Positions 14,515 through 31,158 of a stretch of 38,779 bases of DNA are shown here, piece by piece. This stretch comes from an uncultured Flavobacteriaceae bacterium (GTDB lineage Bacteria > Bacteroidota > Bacteroidia > Flavobacteriales > Flavobacteriaceae). Made by a program: the position numbers and the translations under genes. The first letter of the stretch is position 1. Every line of letters begins with the position of its first letter. The stretch is taken from contig CALKOU010000016.1 of assembly GCA_938092005.1 (NCBI GenBank), positions 1 through 38,779 of the forward strand, given 5' to 3'. Under the pieces are notes generated by a model. The model was not told where the DNA came from, did not search any database, and saw only the letters and a program-made list of their open reading frames with translations.

Positions 14515-14587
14515 GACTTGGTAGCTCAGCTGGTAGAGCATCTCCCTTTTAAGGAGAGGGTCCTGGGTTCGAACCCCAGCCAAGTCA
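14515..14587 (+). tRNA. tRNA-Lys (anticodon TTT), copy 2
   Basis: Identical base for base to copy 1 and offset by 78 bases. Only a 5-base spacer separates the two genes, so the pair looks like a recent tandem duplication. Confidence 0.97.
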
Positions 14588-14600
14588 CTCACTACGATTC

Positions 14601-14686
14601 GCGCACGTGGCGGAACTGGTAGACGCGCTAGGTTGAGGGCCTAGTGGGAGTTATATCCCGTGGAGGTTCGATTCCTCTCGTGCGCA
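14601..14686 (+). tRNA. tRNA-Leu (anticodon GAG)
   Basis: An 86-base class II tRNA with a long variable arm (GGGAGTTATATCCC). The acceptor stem is GCGCACG/CGTGCGC, the anticodon stem CTAGG/CCTAG surrounds loop TTGAGGG (anticodon GAG), and the T-arm has GGTTCGATTCC. It reads CUY leucine codons. The 14687-14729 region downstream has a T-rich run but no clear hairpin. Confidence 0.95.
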
Positions 14687-14729
14687 CTTTATTTCTTTAA
14701 TAACCAGCCATTTATATTATATTTTTTTG

Positions 14730-14766
14730 TAATTTTGTTTATCATTGTTAATTAAACATTAAACAA
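14730..14766 (+). promoter_or_regulatory. Promoter and candidate operator of the MerR/B12 regulator gene
   Basis: The -7 box TAATTTTG (14730-14737) overlaps a TTGTTTA half-site (14735-14741). Downstream, 14752-14766 reads two tandem TTAAACA units and a final A, ending right at the start codon. Together they form inverted half-sites TTGTTTA / TAAACA spanning the promoter and start, as expected for autorepression. The same half-sites occur before crtB and before the photolyase operon. The binding protein is inferred, not shown. Confidence 0.45.
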
Positions 14767-15672
14767 ATGGATCGCGTTAAGAATAGTTTCAGCATAAAAA
14801 ACCTCGAACACCTTTCAGGAATAAAAGCACACACAATACGTATATGGGAAAAACGCTACAATTTGTTTGAGCCCAAACGAACAGACACAAACATTCGATT
14901 ATACGATCTTGAAAACCTGCAAAAACTACTAAACGTTACCTTACTCTACAATAATGGCTTCAAGATTTCTAAAATTGCAAAACTCACCCCGCAAGAAGTA
15001 ACGGAAAACATTCACAACCTAACCATAAACAAAAATGCCGACGATTGGTCTTTGGGACTTTTCAAGTTGGCCATGATCAATTTTGATCAACGTCTATTTA
15101 CAAAAACCTTTAACGACCTTCTTGAACAATTTACGTTTACAGAAATATTCAAAAACGTTTTTGTTCCGCTTATGAACGAATTGGGTGTGTTGTGGCAAAC
15201 AAACTCCATAAGTCCATCCCACGAACATTTTATCACAAGTTTAGTAAAGCAGAAAATCCATGCCATGTGCGAGGAACTGCAAACACAACCTACGCGAAGA
15301 ACCGATCGTAGATTTGTTTTATTCTTACCTGATAATGAAATTCACGAATTGGGGCTGCTCTATTTGCAATATGAAGTATTGAACAATGGTTTCCAGTGTG
15401 TGTTTTTAGGTCAATCTGTACCTATCGAGAGTTTAAACAACCTCGTGGACATAGGCGAACCCATTACATTTTTATCCTATTTTACAATTGAGCCAATTCA
15501 AGAAAAAGTAAATGAATATTTGAATACATTTAAACAAGAAATCATTAACAACATGGACAGTGACTTGTGGATATTAGGATATCAGATTCAGTTTATCAAA
15601 GAAGACATTCCTGAAAAAATACGCAAATTCCACTCCATTGACGAAGTAGTTGAAGCGTTGAGTGTTGTTTAG
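14767..15672 (+). CDS. MerR-family regulator with cobalamin-binding (CarH-like) domain
   Basis: A probable light- or B12-responsive transcription factor of 301 residues. An N-terminal MerR winged helix-turn-helix (about 8-75: FSIKNLEHLSGI, TIRIWEKRY, RLYDLENL) is followed by a four-helix cobalamin cap and a Rossmann-like B12-binding domain. The residues used by the photoreceptor CarH are kept with exact spacing: W143, E153 and H154 (W-x9-E-H) in the cap, and E191-x-H193-x-x-G196 supplying the lower axial His. The distal GG motif of the B12 fold is only partly kept (LGYQIQ near 270). CarH proteins with adenosylcobalamin repress carotenoid genes in the dark and release DNA in light. It lies directly upstream of crtB, which fits that role. 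Ligand and light response are inference. Confidence 0.9.
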   Translation: MDRVKNSFSIKNLEHLSGIKAHTIRIWEKRYNLFEPKRTDTNIRLYDLENLQKLLNVTLLYNNGFKISKIAKLTPQEVTENIHNLTINKNADDWSLGLFKLAMINFDQRLFTKTFNDLLEQFTFTEIFKNVFVPLMNELGVLWQTNSISPSHEHFITSLVKQKIHAMCEELQTQPTRRTDRRFVLFLPDNEIHELGLLYLQYEVLNNGFQCVFLGQSVPIESLNNLVDIGEPITFLSYFTIEPIQEKVNEYLNTFKQEIINNMDSDLWILGYQIQFIKEDIPEKIRKFHSIDEVVEALSVV

Positions 15673-15750: not shown

Positions 15751-16590
15751 ATGAAAGCGCTATTCGATCAAGTTTCTCACAACTGTAGTAAGCTCGTTAC
15801 CGAGTCCTACAGCACCTCTTTTTCTCTTGCTACACGAATACTTTCAAGTGAAATTCGTCAAGATATCTATAACATTTACGGTTTTGTACGCTTTGCCGAT
15901 GAAATCGTCGATACGTTTCACGAATACAACAAACCCGAGCTGTTCAATCGTTTTGAGCAGTCACTTGAAAATGCACTTACAGATAAGATTAGCCTTAATC
16001 CCATTTTAAACAGCTTTCAAGAAACAGTGCATCGTTATAGCATAGATCGTGAATACATAGATGCATTTATGCAAAGTATGCGATGGGATTTGTCTAAAAA
16101 AACCTATTTAACAGAAGAGGATTACAATGCTTACATCTTTGGTTCTGCTGATGTTGTTGGCTTAATGTGCCTAAAAGTGTTTGTTAAAGGAGATCATGTG
16201 ATGTTTGATTCATTAAAAGACGCTGCCATGCGATTGGGTTCTGCGTTTCAAAAAGTTAATTTTCTACGTGATTTAAAAGCGGACCACGATCAATTGGAAC
16301 GCTCCTATTTTCCAAATGTTGATATGAATGCATTTGACGAAACTGCTAAGCAACTTATCATTGAAGAAATTGAAGCTGATTTTAACGCAGGGCTTGCTGG
16401 AATTTTTCAGTTACCAGACGCAGCCAAGTTTGGTGTTTATACTGCATATAAATACTATTTGCGTTTACTCAAAAAACTCAAAAGAACACCATCTACACAA
16501 ATTAAATCAAAACGAATTCGCGTGCCTAATTATCAAAAAGTAGATGTGTTAGCGCGTTCTTTTATTCGTTATCAATTCAACTTGCTTTAA
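15751..16590 (+). CDS. crtB: Phytoene synthase
   Basis: Condenses two geranylgeranyl diphosphates into phytoene, the first committed carotenoid step. The 279-residue protein is a trans-isoprenyl diphosphate synthase of the squalene/phytoene family. Both Mg-binding motifs are present: D50EIVD54 (in FVRFADEIVD) and D174LKAD178 (in NFLRDLKAD), along with the STSFSLATR substrate-pocket start. The ERSYFP stretch replaces the more usual R-x-Y-L/F-P element and is normal in Bacteroidota. crtZ follows 13 bases later and the B12-type regulator precedes it. Phytoene desaturase (crtI), often found beside crtB in flavobacteria, is not present here. Confidence 0.93.
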   Translation: MKALFDQVSHNCSKLVTESYSTSFSLATRILSSEIRQDIYNIYGFVRFADEIVDTFHEYNKPELFNRFEQSLENALTDKISLNPILNSFQETVHRYSIDREYIDAFMQSMRWDLSKKTYLTEEDYNAYIFGSADVVGLMCLKVFVKGDHVMFDSLKDAAMRLGSAFQKVNFLRDLKADHDQLERSYFPNVDMNAFDETAKQLIIEEIEADFNAGLAGIFQLPDAAKFGVYTAYKYYLRLLKKLKRTPSTQIKSKRIRVPNYQKVDVLARSFIRYQFNLL

Positions 16591-16603: not shown

Positions 16604-17050
16604 ATGACCCTAATCGCCCATATTGGTGTTTTATTGTTGACCTTTGGAACAATGGAATTTATGGCATGGTTTACACATAAATATGTGATGCATGGATTTT
16701 TGTGGTCGTTACACAAAGATCACCATCACAAAGATCACGATTCATGGTTTGAACGCAATGATTTGTTTTTTATTTTTTACGCTATTGTAAGTGCTGGTTG
16801 TGTCATCCTTTGGGGAGAATATGGCTTCACACCTGGTTTGGCTATTGGGATAGGTATTTTTGCCTATGGATTAGCCTATTTTCTTGTTCATGATATTTTT
16901 ATACACCAACGCTTTAAAGTATGGCGTAATGCTAACAATCGTTATGCAAAAGGCGTAAGACGAGCACACAAAATACATCACAAACATCTAGGTAAAGGAG
17001 ATGGTGAATGTTTTGGAATGCTTTGGGTGCCGGTAAAATATTTTAAATAG
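16604..17050 (+). CDS. crtZ: Beta-carotene hydroxylase (CrtZ type)
   Basis: A membrane di-iron hydroxylase that adds 3-hydroxyl groups to beta-carotene, giving zeaxanthin, a common flavobacterial yellow pigment. The 148-residue protein has all four His clusters: H25-x4-H30, H37KDHH41, H96DIFIH101 and H122KIHH126, plus hydrophobic segments near 5-22, 53-70 and 75-95. It forms an operon with crtB. The last 8 bases overlap ribH on the opposite strand. The beta-carotene substrate requires crtI and crtY activity from elsewhere in the genome. Confidence 0.92.
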   Translation: MTLIAHIGVLLLTFGTMEFMAWFTHKYVMHGFLWSLHKDHHHKDHDSWFERNDLFFIFYAIVSAGCVILWGEYGFTPGLAIGIGIFAYGLAYFLVHDIFIHQRFKVWRNANNRYAKGVRRAHKIHHKHLGKGDGECFGMLWVPVKYFK

Positions 17051-17510
17051 AAAGTTTTGCCATACTAATGGCAGCAGCGGCAGCTTCAGCTCCTTTATTT
17101 CCTAACGCACCTCCACTTCTGGCTTTTGCTTGATCTATGGTATCATCGGTCAAAACACCAAAAATTACTGGAGCAATTCCTAAAGTATTTAGATCTTTAA
17201 TTCCGTTAGAAACGGCTTCACATACATAGTCAAAGTGAGCTGTTTCGCCTCGAATAACACTTCCAAGTGCAATAACAGCATCAAACCCTTTGTGAACAGC
17301 TTTTTTACACCCGTAAATTAATTCAAAACTTCCAGGAACGTCAATGCGTTTAACATTGCTGCATCCTTTTTGTTCGAGTACAGAAAGAGCACCTTGAAAA
17401 AGATTGTTGGTAATTTCAGCATTCCACTCAGAGACAACAACAGCTACTTTGAGTTTTGCTGCACTTGGAACAGCGTCTAAGTTTAACGCACCATGCTGAG
17501 CGGTAGCCAT
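17043..17510 (-). CDS. ribH: 6,7-dimethyl-8-ribityllumazine synthase
   Basis: The penultimate riboflavin enzyme, joining an aminouracil and a butanone phosphate to make lumazine; its product leads to the FAD used by the photolyases of this window. The 155-residue protein has the family motifs VVVSEWNAEIT, VPGSFELIYG, ALGSVIRGETAHFDYV (catalytic His) and FGVLTDDTIDQA. The length is normal for a capsid-forming lumazine synthase. It follows the TPR gene by 5 bases and is presumably cotranscribed with it. No FMN riboswitch is visible upstream of that gene. Confidence 0.95.
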   Translation of the reverse strand: MATAQHGALNLDAVPSAAKLKVAVVVSEWNAEITNNLFQGALSVLEQKGCSNVKRIDVPGSFELIYGCKKAVHKGFDAVIALGSVIRGETAHFDYVCEAVSNGIKDLNTLGIAPVIFGVLTDDTIDQAKARSGGALGNKGAEAAAAAISMAKLSI

Positions 17511-23532: not shown

Positions 23533-23580
23533 GTTTGTTTAGTTTTTTTAAACAAACGTTAAACAAAATGGGTATATTTG
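23533..23580 (+). promoter_or_regulatory. Promoter and candidate operator of the photolyase operon
   Basis: A perfect 9-bp inverted repeat, GTTTGTTTA (23533-23541) and TAAACAAAC (23549-23557), with a 7-base spacer, is followed by another TTAAACAAA (23559-23567). The two TAAACAAA copies start 11 bases apart, one helical turn. The -7 box TATATTTG lies at 23573-23580, 16 bases before the first ATG. The operator therefore covers the -33 region, where no TTG is seen. Direct 11-bp repeats are the known operator form of Thermus CarH. A weak AT-rich terminator for the preceding gene is the alternative reading. Confidence 0.55.
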
Positions 23581-23596
23581 CGTAAACAATTGCAAC

Positions 23597-24055
23597 ATGT
23601 ACCAATACACCTCAAAACAAGAGCTTTCCACCACCATGGAAAAAGCATGGGAATTTTTAAGTGACCCAAAAAACCTAAAACGCATTACGCCAAGCTACAT
23701 GGGCTTTGACATCCTCTCTGGGGCAGATCGAAACATGTTTCCTGGGCAAATTATCCAATACCGATTAACGCCCATCTTAGGCATTCCTTTTCGCTGGGTT
23801 ACTGAAATAACGCATGTACAAGAAGGGCATTACTTTGTTGATGAACAGCGCTTTGGCCCATACACTTTTTGGCACCACAAACATTTCATTCACCAAACAG
23901 AACAAGGAGTTATCATGGAAGACATCGTGGATTATAAACTCCCATTGGGTCCATTGGGATGGCTTGCCCATGCCTTATTTGTTCGCTCAAAAGTGAAGCA
24001 AATATTTGATTTCAGAGAAAAAGCATTAAACGAAATTTTTAATACAACAACATGA
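23597..24055 (+). CDS. SRPBCC-family ligand-binding protein
   Basis: A 152-residue START/Bet v1-fold protein (COG4276 type): YTSKQELSTTMEKAWEFLSDPKNLKRITP, GQIIQYRLTPILGIPFRWVTEI, FGPYTFWHHKHFIHQ. The fold encloses a hydrophobic cavity for lipids or other apolar ligands; the true ligand is unknown. Such genes are repeatedly found next to photolyase/cryptochrome genes in bacteria. It is the first gene of the operon, next to the candidate operator, and overlaps the SDR gene by ATGA. Confidence 0.88.
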   Translation: MYQYTSKQELSTTMEKAWEFLSDPKNLKRITPSYMGFDILSGADRNMFPGQIIQYRLTPILGIPFRWVTEITHVQEGHYFVDEQRFGPYTFWHHKHFIHQTEQGVIMEDIVDYKLPLGPLGWLAHALFVRSKVKQIFDFREKALNEIFNTTT

Positions 24056-24753
24056 GTAAAACATATTTATTAATTGGCGGAAGCTACGGCATCGGCAATG
24101 ATATCATTGATCAACTACCAGCAGATGCTGATATCATTATTGCATCTAGAACAAACGATGGATTAGTTGGCAAACAAGTCAAGCACATTCATTTTAATGT
24201 TCTTGAAGACACCCTTCCTTTAGATCAATTGCCATCAAAAATTGATGGGTTTGTGTACTGCCCTGGCAGCATCAATCTAAGACCCTTTAAGGGATTAAAA
24301 CCCGAAGCCTTTACGAATGATTTTGAGATTAATGTAATGGGAGCTGTTCGCACCCTACAACAAATTCAACCCTTGTTGGTCGCTAGTGGCCAAGCTAGCG
24401 TCGTACTGTTTAGCACGGTAGCCGTCCAAACGGGCATGCCTTTTCACGCAAGTGTTGCAGCATCAAAAGGAGCCATTGAAGGATTGGGGCGTTCGTTAGC
24501 TGCGGAATGGGCACCCAAAGTACGTGTAAACGTCATTGCACCGTCCATAACAGATACTCCACTGGCAAATAGGTTTCTTAACAATGATATCAAAAAAGAA
24601 AAGGCCGCACAAAGACACCCACTTAAGCGCATTGGCACCACAACCGATGTAGCGCAATTGGCTGCTTTCTTACTTTCAGAAAAAAGCAGTTGGATGACAG
24701 GTCAAGTATTGGGTCTGGATGGGGGAATGTCATCATTAAATGTTAGCGGATGA
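24052..24753 (+). CDS. SDR-family protein lacking the catalytic Tyr
   Basis: A 233-residue Rossmann protein of the short-chain dehydrogenase family. The cofactor motif GGSYGIG (9-15), the N94 region (FEINVMGA), S121 and K139 are present. The YxxxK active site reads V135-A-A-S-K139, with Val where the proton-donating Tyr should be. The C-terminal GQVLGLDGGMS is typical. It may therefore bind NAD(P) without classical SDR chemistry, or use another residue. It is coupled by 4-base overlaps to the SRPBCC gene before it and the photolyase gene after it. Confidence 0.88.
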   Translation: MSKTYLLIGGSYGIGNDIIDQLPADADIIIASRTNDGLVGKQVKHIHFNVLEDTLPLDQLPSKIDGFVYCPGSINLRPFKGLKPEAFTNDFEINVMGAVRTLQQIQPLLVASGQASVVLFSTVAVQTGMPFHASVAASKGAIEGLGRSLAAEWAPKVRVNVIAPSITDTPLANRFLNNDIKKEKAAQRHPLKRIGTTTDVAQLAAFLLSEKSSWMTGQVLGLDGGMSSLNVSG

Positions 24754-26042
24754 TATTATTTTGGTTTCGTCGCGATTTACGATTTCATGACAATGCAGGC
24801 TTTTTTCATGCCCTACAAGGGGACGAACAAGTGCTTCCTGCATTCGTGTTCGACAAAACCATTCTAGACAAACTGCCAAAAAATGATGCTCGTGTTGATT
24901 TTATTCACCAGCATTTACAAAAAATGCAACAAAGTTGTGAGGCTCAAAACAGCTCTATGCTTGTTGCCAAAGGGAATCCGCTCAGCTTAATCACAGCGTG
25001 GTGTAAGCAATACAAGGTCACCGCGGTATACACCAACGAAGATTATGAGCCTTACGCACGTGAGCGTGATGCAGAAATGCAAAAATTATTAGAAAACAAA
25101 GGCATTACTTTCAAAAAATTCAAGGACCAAGTGATCTATGCACCTCATGAGGTGCTCAAAAAAGACGGTACACCTTACAGGGTTTACACACCCTTTTCTA
25201 AAGTATGGTTAGCTAAATTAGCAGAAGAAGGGATTCCATCATTCGCGACTGAAGCCTCTATTAGCAAATTGCATCAACAAGACCTACCTACAATCCCAAC
25301 ACTAAGCGAAATAGGTTTTGAAAAACCACTACATGAAGTGCCAAAACCCAACAGCAGCACTTCGCTAATGGATGAATACGAGGCAGTTCGGAATTTTCCA
25401 GCTGTAGACGGAACAAGCCGTTTGGGAATTCATCTTCGATTTGGGACAGTGTCTATCAGAGAATTGGTCAAGAAAGCACAAAAAAGAGACAACAATACAT
25501 TTTTAAAAGAACTTGTTTGGCGGGAATTTTTTATGCAAATTCTATGGCATTACCCACACACCACAGCAGCGAGTTTTAAGCCACAATACGAACGTATTGC
25601 ATGGCGGAACAATGAAGCTGAGTTTAAAAAATGGTGTACAGGAAACACGGGCTATCCCTTAGTAGACGCAGGCATGCGCGAACTCAACCAAACAGGTTTT
25701 ATGCACAATCGGGTACGAATGTTAGTAGGTAGTTTTTTGTGCAAGCACTTACTCATAGATTGGCGCTGGGGCGAAGCCTATTTTGCGGAAAAACTATTGG
25801 ATTATGAGCAATCCAGCAATGTTGGAAACTGGCAGTGGGTAGCCGGCTGCGGTGTAGATGCGGCTCCCTATTTCCGTGTGTTTAATCCAACAGAGCAGGT
25901 CAAAAAATTTGATAAGGAGCATGCTTATATCAAGAAGTGGGTGCCAGAATATCAATCCATGAATTACCCCACACCAATGGTTGATCATAAAATGGCACGT
26001 GCTAGATGCTTGGAAACCTATAAAGCAGGGTTGGCATCGTGA
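24750..26042 (+). CDS. Class I CPD deoxyribodipyrimidine photolyase
   Basis: Uses blue/UV-A light and reduced FAD to split cyclobutane pyrimidine dimers. The 430-residue protein has the N-terminal antenna (photolyase) domain starting [11 protein letters not shown] and the helical FAD domain with [19 protein letters not shown] and [13 protein letters not shown]. The residues equivalent to the E. coli enzyme are intact: N357 facing flavin N5 and the Trp electron chain W361, W338, W295. [11 protein letters not shown] is the typical class I C-terminal motif. The antenna pigment cannot be read from sequence. It is the canonical repair enzyme of the four paralogues in this operon. Confidence 0.94.
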
Positions 26043-26185
26043 GAGGGGTGAAAAAAGAAAATTTACCTCAAAAGACATGTATGGTATGCAACAGGCCTTT
26101 TACCTGGCGAAAGAAATGGAGCAAAGACTGGGAAAACGTTAAATATTGTAGTAAAAAATGCAGCGGGCAAAAACAACAGGTTTAG
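26039..26185 (+). CDS. DUF2256 mini-protein (zinc-finger-like)
   Basis: A 48-residue protein nested between the CPD photolyase and DASH genes. Starting at GTG 26039 (GTGA overlap with the photolyase stop; GTG 26048 is an alternative), it contains C-M-V-C (14-17) and C-S-K-K-C (37-41) around [16 protein letters not shown]. This pattern matches DUF2256, a tiny family often encoded beside photolyases and cryptochromes. The four Cys probably bind zinc. It overlaps the next gene by 28 bases in another frame, so automatic annotation easily misses it. The function is unknown; binding of DNA or of a neighbouring photolyase is a reasonable guess. Confidence 0.88.
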
Positions 26186-27456
26186 TATGGTTTCGGAACG
26201 ATTTACGCGTTCAGGATCAACACAGCTTATCTCAAGCAATTGCAGCTCATGAGCGGGTTATTGCTATTTATCACTTACCCAATCAATGGCTACAAAAAAC
26301 GCCTTGGGGATTTAGAAAAATGGAAGGTTTTCGTGCCGCTTTCCTTCTACAAACATTAACAGCACTACAAAAGGAGTTAGCAGCACTTAATATTTCGCTT
26401 TGGGTAACCGTTGGGAATTGGAGACAGACTTTACAGCGACTTCAAACGGATTATAACATCTCTGATATATACGGCCAACACGAATGGACACAAGAAGAAG
26501 AGGATGATGCGGCAAGTATCCCAAGTAATATTAAACCCCACTGGCAATACGATCAGTTTCTTTTTCACTCAGATGACATTCCGATGGCGGTAGCTGACAT
26601 CCCCGAAGTGTTTACCGTTTTTAGAAAAAAATGTGAAAAACATGCAAGGGTACGAACTCCACTTCCAATCCCTTCTGCCATGCCAAAAGAAAATATATTG
26701 CACACTGTTCCTGAAATCCCAACTTTAGAAAAATTAGGGTATACCGCTAGTAAACAGGATACAAGAACAGCCATTCCATTTGAGGGTGGTGAAAACGCAG
26801 CATGGAAACGAGTAGCAGAATATTTTTGGGAAACAAAACAACTTTCTTACTACAAAAAAACACGTAACGGATTACTGGGAAAAAAGTACAGTTCAAAGCT
26901 ATCGCTATGGTTAGCATTTGGATCAATCTCCCCTATTTCTCTATATCACGAAGTTAAAAGATACGAACGTGATATTGCTAAAAACGACTCAACATATTGG
27001 CTGATTTTTGAACTTATTTGGAGAGATTATTTCAAATACATTTCCATGAAGCACGGAAACAAGATATTTAGAATAGGTGGGGTTTTGCAAAAGGACTACA
27101 CGTGGAAAACAAACGAACGGCTCGTTCACAAATGGGTTACAGGAGAAACGCCAGAACCCTTTGTCAACGCCAATATGCGAGAGCTTGCTAACACTGGCTT
27201 TATGAGCAATAGAGGACGTCAAAATGTGGCGAGCTTTTTTGCAAAAGAATGGCATTTGGATTGGCGTATTGGTGCTGCTTATTTTGAGGCCATGCTGATT
27301 GATTACGACGTGCATAGCAACTATGGCAATTGGATGTACAATGCAGGAGTGGGGAATGATCCTCGAGATCGAAAGTTTAATATTACCTGGCAGGCAGAGC
27401 GCTATGACCCAAACAACAAGTACCAGAACACCTGGCTACAAACAACCCTTTTTTAA
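26158..27456 (+). CDS. DASH-type cryptochrome
   Basis: A 432-residue DASH-family protein: [49 protein letters not shown]-like motif ([12 protein letters not shown]) and the diagnostic [23 protein letters not shown] and [33 protein letters not shown] proteins repair dimers in single-stranded DNA or loop regions and may act in signalling. N388 opposite flavin N5 and W392 are kept. The usual PFVDANMREL reads [10 protein letters not shown]. The C-terminus is short, without the tail of signalling cryptochromes. Its stop shares a base with the next start (TAATG). Confidence 0.93.
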
Positions 27457-28985
27457 TGGAAATACGACTTATACTTGGCGACCAGCTTAACAAAAACCAC
27501 ACTTGGTTCACAGAGCTCAACAATGAAGTGTGCTATGTGATGTTTGAAATGCGTCAAGAAACTGACTATGTCAAGCATCACATTCAAAAAGTAGTTGCTT
27601 TTTTTGCAGCAATGCGAAATTTTGCAAGACAGTTAGAGGAAGACGCTCACAACGTATTGTATTACACCATTGACGATCCAAACAACACACACGATCTACA
27701 AAAGAATATCGAGAAAGTAATCAAGTTATTTGGTGCTAAAAGCTTTGCCTATCAACTTCCTGATGAATATCGTTTAGACGAGCAGCTAAAAAAAATTACA
27801 GCTAATCTTAAGATTCCAACCAAAGCCGTTGATACCGATCATTTTCTTACAACACGAAAAGAATTAGCAGAATTCTACAACGGGAAGAAGTCATTAGTGA
27901 TGGAGTTTTTTTACCGTTATATGCGAAAAAAACACCAATACCTAATGGTGGATAATCAACCTGAAGGTGGCAGCTGGAATTACGACAAGTTCAACCGAAA
28001 CACCTGGAAAGGTGGCACTATACCTCCACCCTATCAACCCGACGCAACACTTGCCAAAGAAATTTATCCACAAGTAATAGCGGCAGGTATAACTACTATA
28101 GGAACGTTTAATGAAAATGAATTTCTGTTTGCAACAACAAGAAACGAATCGCTTAAACAGTTGGATTACTTCTGTGATCATTTATTGCAGGATTTTGGCA
28201 CCTATCAAGATGCCATGCACCAAGACGAAACCAATTTATTTCACGCACGCATATCCTTTAGTTTAAATGTAAAACTCATTGACCCTACTGAAGTCATTGA
28301 GCGGGCTATTGCAGCTTATCGAAAAAGCGAAGCGCACATAAACTTGTCACAAATCGAGGGCTTTGTGCGTCAGATACTAGGTTGGCGAGAATACATCAGA
28401 GGATTGTATTGGAAAGAAATGCCACAATACAAACAAAAAAATGAGCTCAACAACTTTGGAAAACTGCCTGCTTTTTACTGGACTGGGAATACCAAAATGA
28501 ACTGCCTTAAAACAAGCATCAAAAACAGCTTAGATCACGCATATGCGCACCACATTCAACGGCTCATGATAACAGGAAATTTTGCGTTGCTATTGCAAAC
28601 ACACCCTGATGAAGTAGACGATTGGTACTTGGGTATTTACGCAGATGCGGTGGAATGGGTACAACTTCCAAACACGCGTGGCATGAGCCAGTATGCAGAC
28701 GGAGGTATTTTAGCCACAAAGCCCTATGTTTCATCGGGGTCGTATGTGAATAAAATGAGTAATTACTGCAAGGACTGTGTTTATGACAAAAAACAACGTG
28801 TAGGCGAAAATGCTTGTCCGTTCAACAGTTTGTATTGGAATTTTTTAGACGACAAAAGAGCTGAGCTTAAAGGGAATAATCGTATGGGTATGATGTACAA
28901 CTTACTTGGTAAAATCAACCCTGAGGATCTAGCTCAAATAAAGGAAAGAGCATATCAAATCATGGAAAATCCCGATGCCTTCTAA
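27456..28985 (+). CDS. Fe-S photolyase/cryptochrome (FeS-BCP, prokaryotic (6-4) type)
   Basis: A 509-residue member of the iron-sulfur bacterial cryptochrome/photolyase clade, which repairs (6-4) photoproducts in Agrobacterium (PhrB) and acts as CryB in Rhodobacter. The N-terminus [11 protein letters not shown] is diagnostic. The four [4Fe-4S] ligands fall at C350, C438, C441 and C454, the same numbering as in Agrobacterium PhrB. The His pair H365-H366 (AHHIQRLM) near the flavin is also kept, as is W390-Y391 and the ANTRGMSQ-like stretch [14 protein letters not shown]. Repair function is likely by homology. It overlaps the following gene by 11 bases. Confidence 0.94.
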
Positions 28986-30441
28986 ACCTTCCATACATGT
29001 TTTTTGGTTTAAACGAGACCTACGTCTTTTAGATAACGAAGGGCTGCAGGATGCTATCAACAGCGGCAAACCCGTGCTACTACTCTATGTTTTTGAACCC
29101 ATTGTAACGGAAGACCCTCACTATCATCCGCGTCATCACAACTTTATAACACAATCTTTGCTGGCATTACATGATGAATTAAAACCATATAAGACCAAAG
29201 TACATGTGTACAAAAGCGATGTAGAAACAGTTCTGAACAGCATACAAAAGATCGCTAAAATTGAAAGGCTATACTCCATGCAAGAAACGGGTTTAACAAA
29301 CACCTATAACCGTGATAAAAGCATAAAGAAGTGGTGTCGTGCACATAATGTTTCGTGGAAAGAACATATCAATAATGGGGTATCTAGGGGTTTACAAAAC
29401 AGAAGCAGGTGGCGCCAAACATGGACAGATTACATGCTAAAACCCATCAAACCCTTTCGTGCAGAAGCCACAAACTTTGTTACTATTGACATTTTAGAAG
29501 AGGTACAGTTGGAACCAAAAAAACAAGCGGGCATCCAAGTTGGCGGAACTAAAACAGGATTAGCCTATCTAGATAGCTTCTTGAACAAACGACATAAAAA
29601 ATACCAACAATCCATTTCAAAGCCTGAGACTTCAAGAATACATTGCGGCCGTGTTTCCCCTTACATAGCCTGGGGAAACCTTTCTGTGCGCTATGTATGG
29701 CAACGAGCCAAGCAAGCAAAGGCAGCTGGGGCAAACGGTTTTCAGCTAAATGCCTTTACCTCAAGACTGCGTTGGCAAGCACATTTTATTCAAAAGTTTG
29801 AAATGGAAACCATCATGGAATTTAAAAGTGTGAATGCCGGGTTTCGAACGTTAAAAAAACCTGTTCATGATGCTTTCATTAACGCTTGGAAGACAGGCGC
29901 AACAGGGTATCCACTTGTTGATGCTAGTATGCGTTGTGTTGTTCAAACGGGGTATTTAAATTTCCGCATGCGTGCAATGGTTGTCTCCTTTTTTACGCAT
30001 CATCTTTGGCAGCCGTGGCAAGCAGGGGCCGTATTTTTGGGGAAGCAATTTTTAGATTTTGAACCTGGCATACATTATCCGCAATTTCAAATGCAAGCAG
30101 GTGAAACAGGAATTAACATGTTGCGGATTTACAATCCTACAAAAAATGCACAAGAACACGATTCCAATGGCGATTTTATTCGTAAGTGGGTGCCTGAGCT
30201 TGCGCAATTACCAACTGCATTTGTACTAGAACCTTGGTCCATGACTGAATTGGAACAACAAGCGTATGGTTGTGTGCTGGGCAACGATTATCCAAAACCC
30301 ATTGTGGACATTAAAAAAACCTACAAATACGCGTCAGAAATATTATGGGGCATGAAGCGCAACAGTTTAGTAAGAAAAGAAAGCAAACGTATTTTAGCAA
30401 AACACACCCTTCCCGACAGGGCAAACATTATGGACAGATGA
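28975..30441 (+). CDS. Photolyase-fold flavoprotein with altered FAD pocket
   Basis: A 488-residue cryptochrome/photolyase-family protein of unassigned activity. The N-terminal domain ([15 protein letters not shown]) and the FAD domain ([12 protein letters not shown]) are clear. Compared with class I enzymes, the segment equivalent to SSNVGNWQW reads GIHYPQFQM (365-373): the Asn that controls flavin N5 is H367 and the flavin-proximal Trp is F371, while W348 and W305 of the electron chain remain. The motif [13 protein letters not shown] (134-146) is a family-specific linker. Similar [10 protein letters not shown] proteins are widespread but, to my knowledge, not biochemically assigned. It could be a photosensor or a repair enzyme with other photochemistry. 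Confidence 0.88.
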
Positions 30442-30716
30442 AAAAAGAACTAACCGCACAAGATATCGATCGTATTATAGAAATGGGTTGGGAAGATCGT
30501 ACCCCTTTTGATGCTATTCAGTTACAATTTGGATTAAAAGAACAAGACGTTATTACCATCATGCGTAGGAACATGAAGCCAAGTAGTTTTAAACTTTGGC
30601 GAAAGCGTGTGCAAGGAAGGAAAACAAAACACGTAAAAAAACGATCGGATGAAGTGGGTCGTTTTAAGTGTTCACGACAGCGGGGAATCAGCAACAACAA
30701 AGTTTCGAAACGTTAA
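30438..30716 (+). CDS. TIGR03643-family protein
   Basis: A 92-residue basic protein ([20 protein letters not shown], then [33 protein letters not shown]). This matches TIGR03643, a small family of unknown function typically encoded beside photolyase genes. The first two-thirds look like a helix-turn-helix-like fold ([21 protein letters not shown]). The tail is Lys/Arg-rich, consistent with nucleic-acid binding. ATG 30438 overlaps the previous stop by ATGA; the frame extending upstream is inside the photolyase gene. Confidence 0.87.
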
Positions 30717-30747
30717 AAATATGTATCTTGGGGTAAATCTTAATGTA

Positions 30748-31158
30748 ATGCCCCAAAACAAAACACAGCCTACCCGTACCGACGTAAATACATTTTTAAA
30801 ACAGGTTGCGCCGCAAGAAAAACAGCAAGACTGCTTTACACTGCTAAACCTGATGGAGAAAATTACAAGAGCAAAACCTGTACTTTGGGGAACTGCAATT
30901 GTAGGGTTTGGAAGCTATCCATATCAATATGCAAGTAGGCGAGCTGGTGAATGGTTTTTAACGGGCTTTTCTCCACGTAAGCATGCCATTAGTCTTTACT
31001 TATTTTGTGATTTGCAGCACCCTCAATTATCGTTTGACAATCTTGGTAAACACAAACGAGGAAAGGGATGTTTGTACATTAAAAAATGTGCAGATATTAA
31101 TCTTGATGTATTGGAAGTAATTATTCGAAAGGCAATAGCGCTTACAAAGCAAGTTTAA
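30748..31158 (+). CDS. DUF1801 (YdhG-like) protein
   Basis: A 136-residue DUF1801 protein: NKTQPTRTDVNTFLKQVAP, LWGTAIVGFGSYPYQYASRRAG, FLTGFSPRKHAISLYL, LGKHKRGKGCLYIKKCADINLDVL. The family fold is known but its job is not. I chose ATG 30748 because it begins just before the domain; ATG 30721, five bases after the previous stop, is also possible. It is the last gene of the photolyase operon and overlaps the murA stop by 4 bases, tail to tail. Confidence 0.83.
   Translation: MPQNKTQPTRTDVNTFLKQVAPQEKQQDCFTLLNLMEKITRAKPVLWGTAIVGFGSYPYQYASRRAGEWFLTGFSPRKHAISLYLFCDLQHPQLSFDNLGKHKRGKGCLYIKKCADINLDVLEVIIRKAIALTKQV

Follow-up and report, generated by a model that had tools for sequence, protein, structure and literature searches.

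What holds together four members of the photolyase/cryptochrome superfamily in one run of genes of an uncultured Flavobacteriaceae bacterium, and what would switch them on? The genes lie on contig C16 (CALKOU010000016.1, assembly GCA_938092005.1), which was analysed over its whole length of 38,779 nucleotides (nt) and is called the window here; the source genome comprises 1.62 Mb in 19 contigs and is 83.6% complete. The original prediction, made from the letters of this stretch, had placed nine co-directional genes behind a single promoter region at 23533-31158. ORF (open reading frame) calls and the sequence confirmed nine ORFs at this place, all on the + strand (23597-31158), and the single promoter region is supported as well.

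Gene order, the shared operator, the genome-wide co-occurrence of operator and regulator and the residue states of the proteins were computed. The best reading of these data, and in our view a probable one, is that the nine genes form a single operon within a CarH/LitR-type light regulon. Judged from its upstream sequence, the photolyase operon looks like part of a wider regulon, which goes beyond the original prediction.

The operator and the CarH-like regulator

The upstream regions of SRPBCC-led operons have an inverted repeat in common, TTGTTTAA-N16-TTAAACA(A/T), which stands just before a box resembling TAnnTTTG, the -7 promoter consensus. The relatives' loci compared were the best 80 of at least 577 related stretches; they lean to close kin, and some are ended by contig edges. 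A site with at most two mismatches was found in 18/18 SRPBCC-led operons with enough upstream DNA, and with at most one mismatch in 17/18, counts that are descriptive since the motif was found in those same regions (a nineteenth operon, L038, was too short upstream; L096, which has no short-chain dehydrogenase (SDR) gene, was added by hand). SRPBCC genes of other layouts (25) had no site within three mismatches in 150 bp, except L102, where the site overlaps the start. A second layout of the photolyase cluster adds TetR, UbiB, a flavin reductase, a DUF2867 SDR, folE, GPx and TspO; here the operator precedes the TetR gene (24/28) and, with at most two mismatches, a gene for a 142-aa protein ahead of TIGR03643-folE (18/24). 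The same loci contain 694 other genes, of which 26 had a site at this threshold. Of 21 other genes with a site at no more than one mismatch, nine come from cluster 9, a family divergent from the SRPBCC gene, and two are crtI. The 69 sites with at most one mismatch in the 80 loci all lie outside predicted ORFs or no more than 60 bp into one.

The number of sites per genome follows a MerR-type regulator with a B12-binding domain, whose gene lies 8.8 kb upstream of the photolyase operon in the same window. Sites were counted in 120 family genomes, with the backward pattern of the operator as control and a best E-value of 1e-61 or better defining a regulator orthologue. The 87 genomes with an orthologue held 521 sites (mean 5.99) against 127 backward matches (1.46). 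Nine genomes with only distant matches (E 3e-44 to 3e-51) held 17 against 13 and 24 genomes without a match 34 against 32 (four of the latter were inferred as unlisted negatives); the mean of 1.5 sites in these 33 genomes (control 1.4) is background. The difference between genomes with and without an orthologue gave a Mann-Whitney p of 1.3e-13 (control p 0.58), values that are optimistic because the genomes are related by shared ancestry; with all 96 matches counted as positive, the means were 5.6 and 1.4 sites. An adjacent site was found at 12 of the 30 regulator loci most similar to this one.

The following features of the window, all on the + strand, are referred to below:

14735..14766, +: operator with one mismatch; abuts the start codon of the CarH-like gene and overlaps TAATTTTG at 14730-14737
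14767..15672, +: MerR plus B12-binding_2, CarH/LitR-like regulator, the proposed light sensor (Pfam, PDB match)
15751..16590, +: crtB-like phytoene synthase (SQS_PSY; Pfam)
16604..17050, +: crtZ-like carotene hydroxylase (FA_hydroxylase domain by Pfam; crtZ by resemblance)
23535..23566, +: operator TTGTTTAG-N16-TTAAACAA, one mismatch to TTGTTTAA-N16-TTAAACAA, at the photolyase operon promoter (sequence, relatives)
23573..23580, +: TATATTTG, candidate -7 element (TAnnTTTG), read from the sequence
23597..24055, +: SRPBCC-like protein (weak Pfam family match)
24052..24753, +: SDR (adh_short_C2; Pfam)
24750..26042, +: cyclobutane pyrimidine dimer (CPD) photolyase, class I type (family match; all tested lesion and triad residues present)
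26039..26185, +: DUF2256, 48 aa, zinc-finger-like with four Cys (clear family match; Cys pattern by eye)
26158..27456, +: CRY-DASH (TIGR02765 above cut-off)
27456..28985, +: FeS-BCP, prokaryotic (6-4) photolyase type (PF04244)
28975..30441, +: PHR4, the fourth, altered photolyase/cryptochrome-fold protein (PF00875 and PF03441)
30438..30716, +: TIGR03643/DUF2805, 92 aa, basic, helical, candidate FeS-BCP partner (family match)
30748..31158, +: DUF1801, last gene, less conserved, start codon uncertain (clear family match)

Most junctions had been said to overlap by 1-28 bases, and 7/8 do: SRPBCC/SDR, SDR/CPD and CPD/DUF2256 (with a GTG start at 26039) by 4 nt each, DUF2256/DASH by 28, DASH/FeS-BCP by 1, FeS-BCP/PHR4 by 11 and PHR4/TIGR03643 (ATG at 30438) by 4. 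For DUF1801 a start at 30748, leaving a 31-nt gap, is more likely than the ORF start at 30649, which would overlap. The operon is bounded at its 3' side by a convergent gene of the 5-enolpyruvylshikimate-3-phosphate (EPSP) synthase family (murA-like) ending at 31155. Scans of the operon for E. coli sigma-70 promoters (18 promoter-like sites, 18.5 expected) and for terminators (11 terminator-like, 7.8 expected, standard deviation 2.9) gave nothing usable.

In the own genome four sites with at most one mismatch were found, where random models trained on 59 kb of this genome predict 0.2-0.5. Besides those before the CarH-like gene and the photolyase operon, a perfect site at C1:67095 lies 2 nt from msrA, followed by folE (L124 3968-5094, G000:C1), and a one-mismatch site at C3:125311 (L125 4812-4843) lies before htpG and opposite fabH (gene names by eye); this last one may be a chance occurrence. 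Six further sites have two mismatches: one is located between proteorhodopsin and blh and another 15 bp ahead of a sugar-kinase-like gene, and the other four are intragenic, as expected by chance. The operator is shared by regulator, carotenoid and photolyase genes, as in LitR/CarH regulons. Two relatives (G327 and G336) have sites before crtI (beside the regulator), before the TetR gene of the photolyase cluster and before the gene preceding TIGR03643 (TetR and the 142-aa protein by resemblance), as well as before a GHMP kinase (mevalonate-kinase-like), a Porph_ging protein and a fasciclin lipoprotein. G327 alone has further sites at rhodopsin/blh, a fatty acid desaturase and two more fasciclin proteins; G336 has one site without a nearby gene and one at a 67-aa ORF. 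In a side observation on these two relatives, 3/4 of the operators at fasciclin-domain (lipo)protein genes (L186, L190, L193, L196) are double sites, 40-43 bp apart.

Rhodopsin genes point in the same direction. A rhodopsin-family match was present in 26/120 family genomes, and 24 genes were tested, two partial or weak ones being omitted (G394 and G337, both regulator-positive). An upstream site with at most two mismatches was found in 13/19 rhodopsin genes of regulator-positive genomes; resampled upstream regions would give 0.2/19, and gene-body windows gave 0/72 on both strands.

Besides the shared ancestry of the genomes and the 59-kb training set, several points weigh against the favoured reading. 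The cut defining an orthologue was placed at an E-value gap after both searches. At 18/30 regulator loci there is no site with at most one mismatch beside the gene. One genome has ten sites and no regulator was found in it (G370, 81% complete); another has the regulator and 0 sites (G382). Among rhodopsin genes, 6/19 in regulator-positive genomes have no site (one, in G358, at a contig end), and a site occurs in 2/5 regulator-negative genomes. The own-genome total at two mismatches (10, of which 4 inside genes) is near chance (6.5-8.5). Finally, genomes with the TetR gene have more sites, partly since the TetR cluster itself carries sites. As a separate observation, G370 consists of 610 contigs and contains TetR, rhodopsin and the fourth protein.

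Four photolyase-fold proteins and their small neighbours

The original prediction had put four superfamily members in tandem, with a division of labour over CPDs, single-stranded lesions, (6-4) products and one further role. All four are in the cluster; the tandem is interrupted by DUF2256 between the CPD photolyase and CRY-DASH. The family labels given for the CPD photolyase, CRY-DASH, FeS-BCP, TIGR03643, DUF1801, DUF2256 and the fourth protein hold, and that of SRPBCC is below the Pfam cut-off (Polyketide_cyc2, 17.1 bits against 27.4). Three PF03441 matches and one PF04244 match occur in the assembly, all inside the operon, and PF03441 and PF04244 searches found no further superfamily member in this 83.6% complete assembly.

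As to the division of labour, three members carry the signatures of CPD, single-stranded DNA (DASH) and (6-4) FeS-BCP enzymes, and the fourth is truly altered. The CPD photolyase is identical to the E. coli enzyme at the lesion residues E274, N341, M345, W277, W384 and N378 and in the electron-transferring triad W382/W359/W306. CRY-DASH scored 501 bits with TIGR02765, whose curated cut-off is 317. FeS-BCP matched PF04244 with 242 bits and, as best PDB entry, 7ykn ('6-4 photolyase (FeS-BCP, CryPro)', E 2.5e-157); aligned by eye, its four cluster Cys, which serve as ligands, and its HHxxR motif are in register with 7ykn. As a side observation, ribH (lumazine synthase) lies at 17043-17510 of the window, convergent to crtZ; its product 6,7-dimethyl-8-ribityllumazine (DMRL) serves as antenna in those FeS-BCPs that had been described earlier than SePhrB (PMC9178010).

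The fourth protein was modelled by AlphaFold2 with confidence (pLDDT, the predicted local distance difference test, 93.8) as a complete photolyase fold. Its closest PDB sequence is Arabidopsis CRY1 (E 2.4e-38), and the structures matched at a template modelling (TM) score of at least 0.8 include class III photolyase, DASH, Drosophila (6-4) photolyase and CRY1, all at no more than 25% identity among the 50 matches listed. It thus has its fold in common with class III photolyase, CRY-DASH and plant CRY1 (4u63, 1np7, 1u3c; TM 0.81-0.86) and is at most 25% identical to them. The nearest named relative of the gene, among the matches listed, is from a Flavobacteriaceae metagenome-assembled genome (76% identical).

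Residues were surveyed against E. coli photolyase in 35 sequences of the family, the one of the window and a selection from the 80 loci. The pocket and triad residues of the E. coli enzyme are replaced: E274 is Arg, N341 Phe, N378 His, W384 Met and R226 Ser in 35/35, and M345 is Ala in 32 or Ser in 3. W382 and W306 are lost, so that of the three triad tryptophans only W359 remains (33/35). On the FAD side, the equivalents of D372, R344 and W277 are kept in 35/35 and position 374 is Asp or Glu. New invariant residues are R264, F330, H367 and M373 (35/35), and an invariant His occupies the flavin-N5 position. Because the FAD-side residues are kept and the pocket residues replaced across the 35 sequences, the protein seems to have retained its flavin cofactor and lost the CPD pocket. 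An unrecognised CPD photolyase was rejected, given R/F/A or S/M/H in place of E274/N341/M345/W384/N378. In animal-type (6-4) photolyases the positions of N341 and M345 are both occupied by active-site His; Phe and Ala/Ser at these places led us to reject this class, too.

A real possibility, from which we lean away, is a non-catalytic, structural or DNA-binding role of the fourth protein, which would make it an ordinary, degenerate or dark cryptochrome. Such a role would fit the missing CPD-pocket residues and the reduced triad, in which two of three tryptophans are gone; the conserved FAD side (R344, D372, D/E374, W277) and the invariant R264, F330, H367 and M373 suggest a working site. We commit to the prediction that it binds flavin and carries out a light or redox reaction other than CPD repair; repair of unusual lesions and sensing are both possible. 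It is a conserved flavoprotein candidate, accessible to experiment, that falls outside the classes examined here.

The small proteins had been proposed as shared cofactors or partners. TIGR03643 is a candidate partner; it follows FeS-BCP and not visibly all four members. DUF2805 was present in 56/56 family genomes with PF04244 and in 12/64 without it (Fisher p 1e-22, 120 family genomes). The two genes were within 20 kb of each other in 39 genomes and not in 17, in 9 of which they were on different contigs. The fourth protein occurred in 27 family genomes, with DUF2805 in all 27 and PF04244 in 25. From this genome co-occurrence, TIGR03643/DUF2805 may be a partner of FeS-BCP, which would make this functionally uncharacterised family an accessory of the (6-4) photolyases in flavobacteria. 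Among 14 control genomes DUF2805 was found in 0 and PF04244 in 3; DUF2805 would therefore be dispensable outside this group. The structural model of TIGR03643 is helical, helix-turn-helix-like at most, with no PDB structure match at E <= 0.001 (best E 1.7). Separately, 24 loci have a member of a 142-aa family without a Pfam match (L061 11576-12001 and homologues), located between TIGR03643 and the fourth photolyase.

Signal of the regulator and ownership of the operator

The best PDB matches of the regulator are entries of Thermus thermophilus CarH (E 8e-14 to 1e-13). The alignment spans residues 8-245 of 301 and includes the His loop, the helical B12-binding_2 domain is above the Pfam cut-off, and the equivalents of W131, E141, H142 and H177 are kept in 30/30 regulators; these are key residues for adenosylcobalamin (AdoCbl) in CarH (PMC11796333). 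A gene for an adenosyltransferase (Cob_adeno_trans) is present in the genome. A B12-dependent sensor is made less certain by four features: a second B12 domain is not recognised by Pfam even with the threshold relaxed to E 10; the NCBIfam CarH equivalog model gave 66 bits where the cut-off is 400; and in 28/30 regulators each, the equivalent of H132 is Gln and the Gly of the GxxH signature is Asn. We call the protein CarH-like because the equivalog cut-off was missed and Pfam recognises the helical B12 domain only.

These same features would suit a LitR/CarH relative that answers a non-B12 signal, e.g. singlet oxygen, iron or a partner photoreceptor, and a class II LitR of Pseudomonas mendocina is reported to work with a LOV protein (PMC9758184). 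We regard this as unlikely, given the four conserved AdoCbl residues, the extent of the CarH alignment and the recognised B12-binding_2 domain; Gln at the H132 position is also reported for SasPcob (PMC11796333). An AdoCbl-type sensor thus stays the favoured reading. CarH is described as a tetramer that represses in the dark and dissociates upon illumination (PMC4557120). Relative to the promoter elements, which it overlaps or abuts, the site is not at one constant distance here, and this would suit a repressor better than a fixed-geometry activator. Two tRNA-like sequences, noted by eye at 14515-14690 of the window, immediately precede the CarH-like gene. For MliR of Bizionia no link to the regulator was found: the part of the source compared names no photolyase and has LitR in the reference list alone, and the MliR sequence was not compared.

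Could the operator instead belong to the TetR-family regulator (TetR_C_23) that heads many photolyase clusters, the CarH-like gene being merely a target? The site upstream of TetR in 24/28 and the greater number of sites in TetR-bearing genomes would agree with this. As main owner TetR was rejected on two grounds, and we consider its ownership improbable. The own genome, as far as it is complete, has no TetR match at E 1e-25 and has the sites all the same; and among 45 genomes without TetR, the CarH-like gene tracks the sites, with a mean of 3.9 in 20 genomes that have it and 1.0 in 25 that do not (p 2e-6). The regulator effect also holds in genomes with TetR (p 7e-4), and the median is 2 sites in the eight genomes that have TetR and lack a regulator orthologue, G370 with its ten included.

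A search for the same gene order in other genomes had been proposed as a check, and a conserved neighbourhood was found. The exact eight-gene order from SRPBCC to TIGR03643 recurs in 6/80 loci and the order DUF2256-DASH-FeS-BCP-fourth gene in 35/80; among tracked genes, FeS-BCP immediately precedes the fourth gene in 41/80. folE lies near the photolyase cluster in 23/80. Flanks of 7.5 kb or more on either side were available for 54 loci; of these, 18 have all seven other genes and 25 at least five. The remaining 29/54 have fewer than five nearby, which makes the full operon one layout among several. A merely historical grouping of functionally unrelated genes, to which this varying composition and the rarity of DUF1801 in the cluster (5 loci) would point, is very improbable, since the order recurs, two different arrangements have the operator in common, and FeS-BCP and DUF2805 co-occur also in the 17/56 genomes where they are more than 20 kb apart or on separate contigs.

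A proposed light switch and known systems

From the favoured reading, an operon under a CarH/LitR-type light regulon, we infer co-transcription, repression and its direction, dependence on light and B12, and all enzyme activities. A MerR protein of CarH/LitR-like type, most probably loaded with AdoCbl, would sit on TTGTTTAA-N16-TTAAACAW and block the promoter as long as it is dark. In the light, the Co-C bond would be broken and the repressor released, and carotenoids, retinal and proteorhodopsin, GTP cyclohydrolase and the photolyase set would be made together. The CPD photolyase would then repair CPDs, DASH CPDs in single-stranded or loop DNA, and FeS-BCP (6-4) products, with TIGR03643 as candidate DNA-binding partner; the fourth protein would carry out a flavin reaction other than CPD repair. 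The light connection claimed for the operon is supported by the operator it shares with the CarH-like, proteorhodopsin and folE genes; the joint function stays an interpretation. If true, one switch would tie energy gain to UV repair, and the operator with the CarH-like regulator would be a concrete candidate for it.

A broader proposal joins two statements: that one B12 photoreceptor-repressor and a 32-bp operator switch light capture, screening and repair in Flavobacteriaceae, and that the fourth protein represents a new photolyase/cryptochrome class, marked by Arg at E274, His at flavin-N5, an incomplete tryptophan chain and a light-driven flavin reaction that is neither CPD nor (6-4) repair. 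Taken together, the two are put forward tentatively and may well not both hold.

Clustering of photolyases in marine flavobacteria is already known (2018) and is enriched in proteorhodopsin-bearing marine Flavobacteriia (PMC5932025). That proximity cluster is from the same bacterial group and likewise combines photolyase and related genes; the text compared gives no gene-by-gene roles, operator or regulator (PMC5932025). What is new here is the operator and its link to the CarH-like regulator and to rhodopsin: in the open-access literature searched, seen in part, no report of this operator or of a B12 regulator for proteorhodopsin was found, and other papers may report it. In Dokdonia MED134, cryptochrome, photolyase and retinal genes are described as light-responsive, as is Dokdonia proteorhodopsin (PMC9040609), and for Chryseobacterium light-induced carotenoids and a suspected LitR-like gene are reported (PMC7064467).

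With the LitR/CarH regulons of Thermus and Myxococcus and of the class II LitRs of Pseudomonas (phrB, cryB, SDR, folE, ufaM), the present system has a MerR-type regulator in common, and photolyase, cryptochrome, SDR, folE and carotenoid genes as targets. It differs in its host, a member of the Bacteroidota, in its operator and in including proteorhodopsin/blh and four superfamily members. Class II LitRs of Pseudomonas putida are reported to take part in the light induction of phrB, cryB and folE (PMC9758184). By description they likewise have no second B12 domain, whereas the flavobacterial regulator keeps the AdoCbl residues, which class II reportedly does not use (PMC9758184).

Two further systems are related in part. 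The UV-B operon of Synechococcus PCC 7335, as described, also has more than one superfamily member and overlapping genes; it consists of two genes, the second enzyme being class II-related and putatively bifunctional, and CRP and IHF sites were proposed for it (PMC9649867). In the blue-light response of Vibrio cholerae (MerR and ChrR), a MerR-type gene in a predicted operon with phr is reported to control blue-light genes; it differs from the present system in acting beside a sigma-E/ChrR pathway and in its other gene content (PMC5241685).

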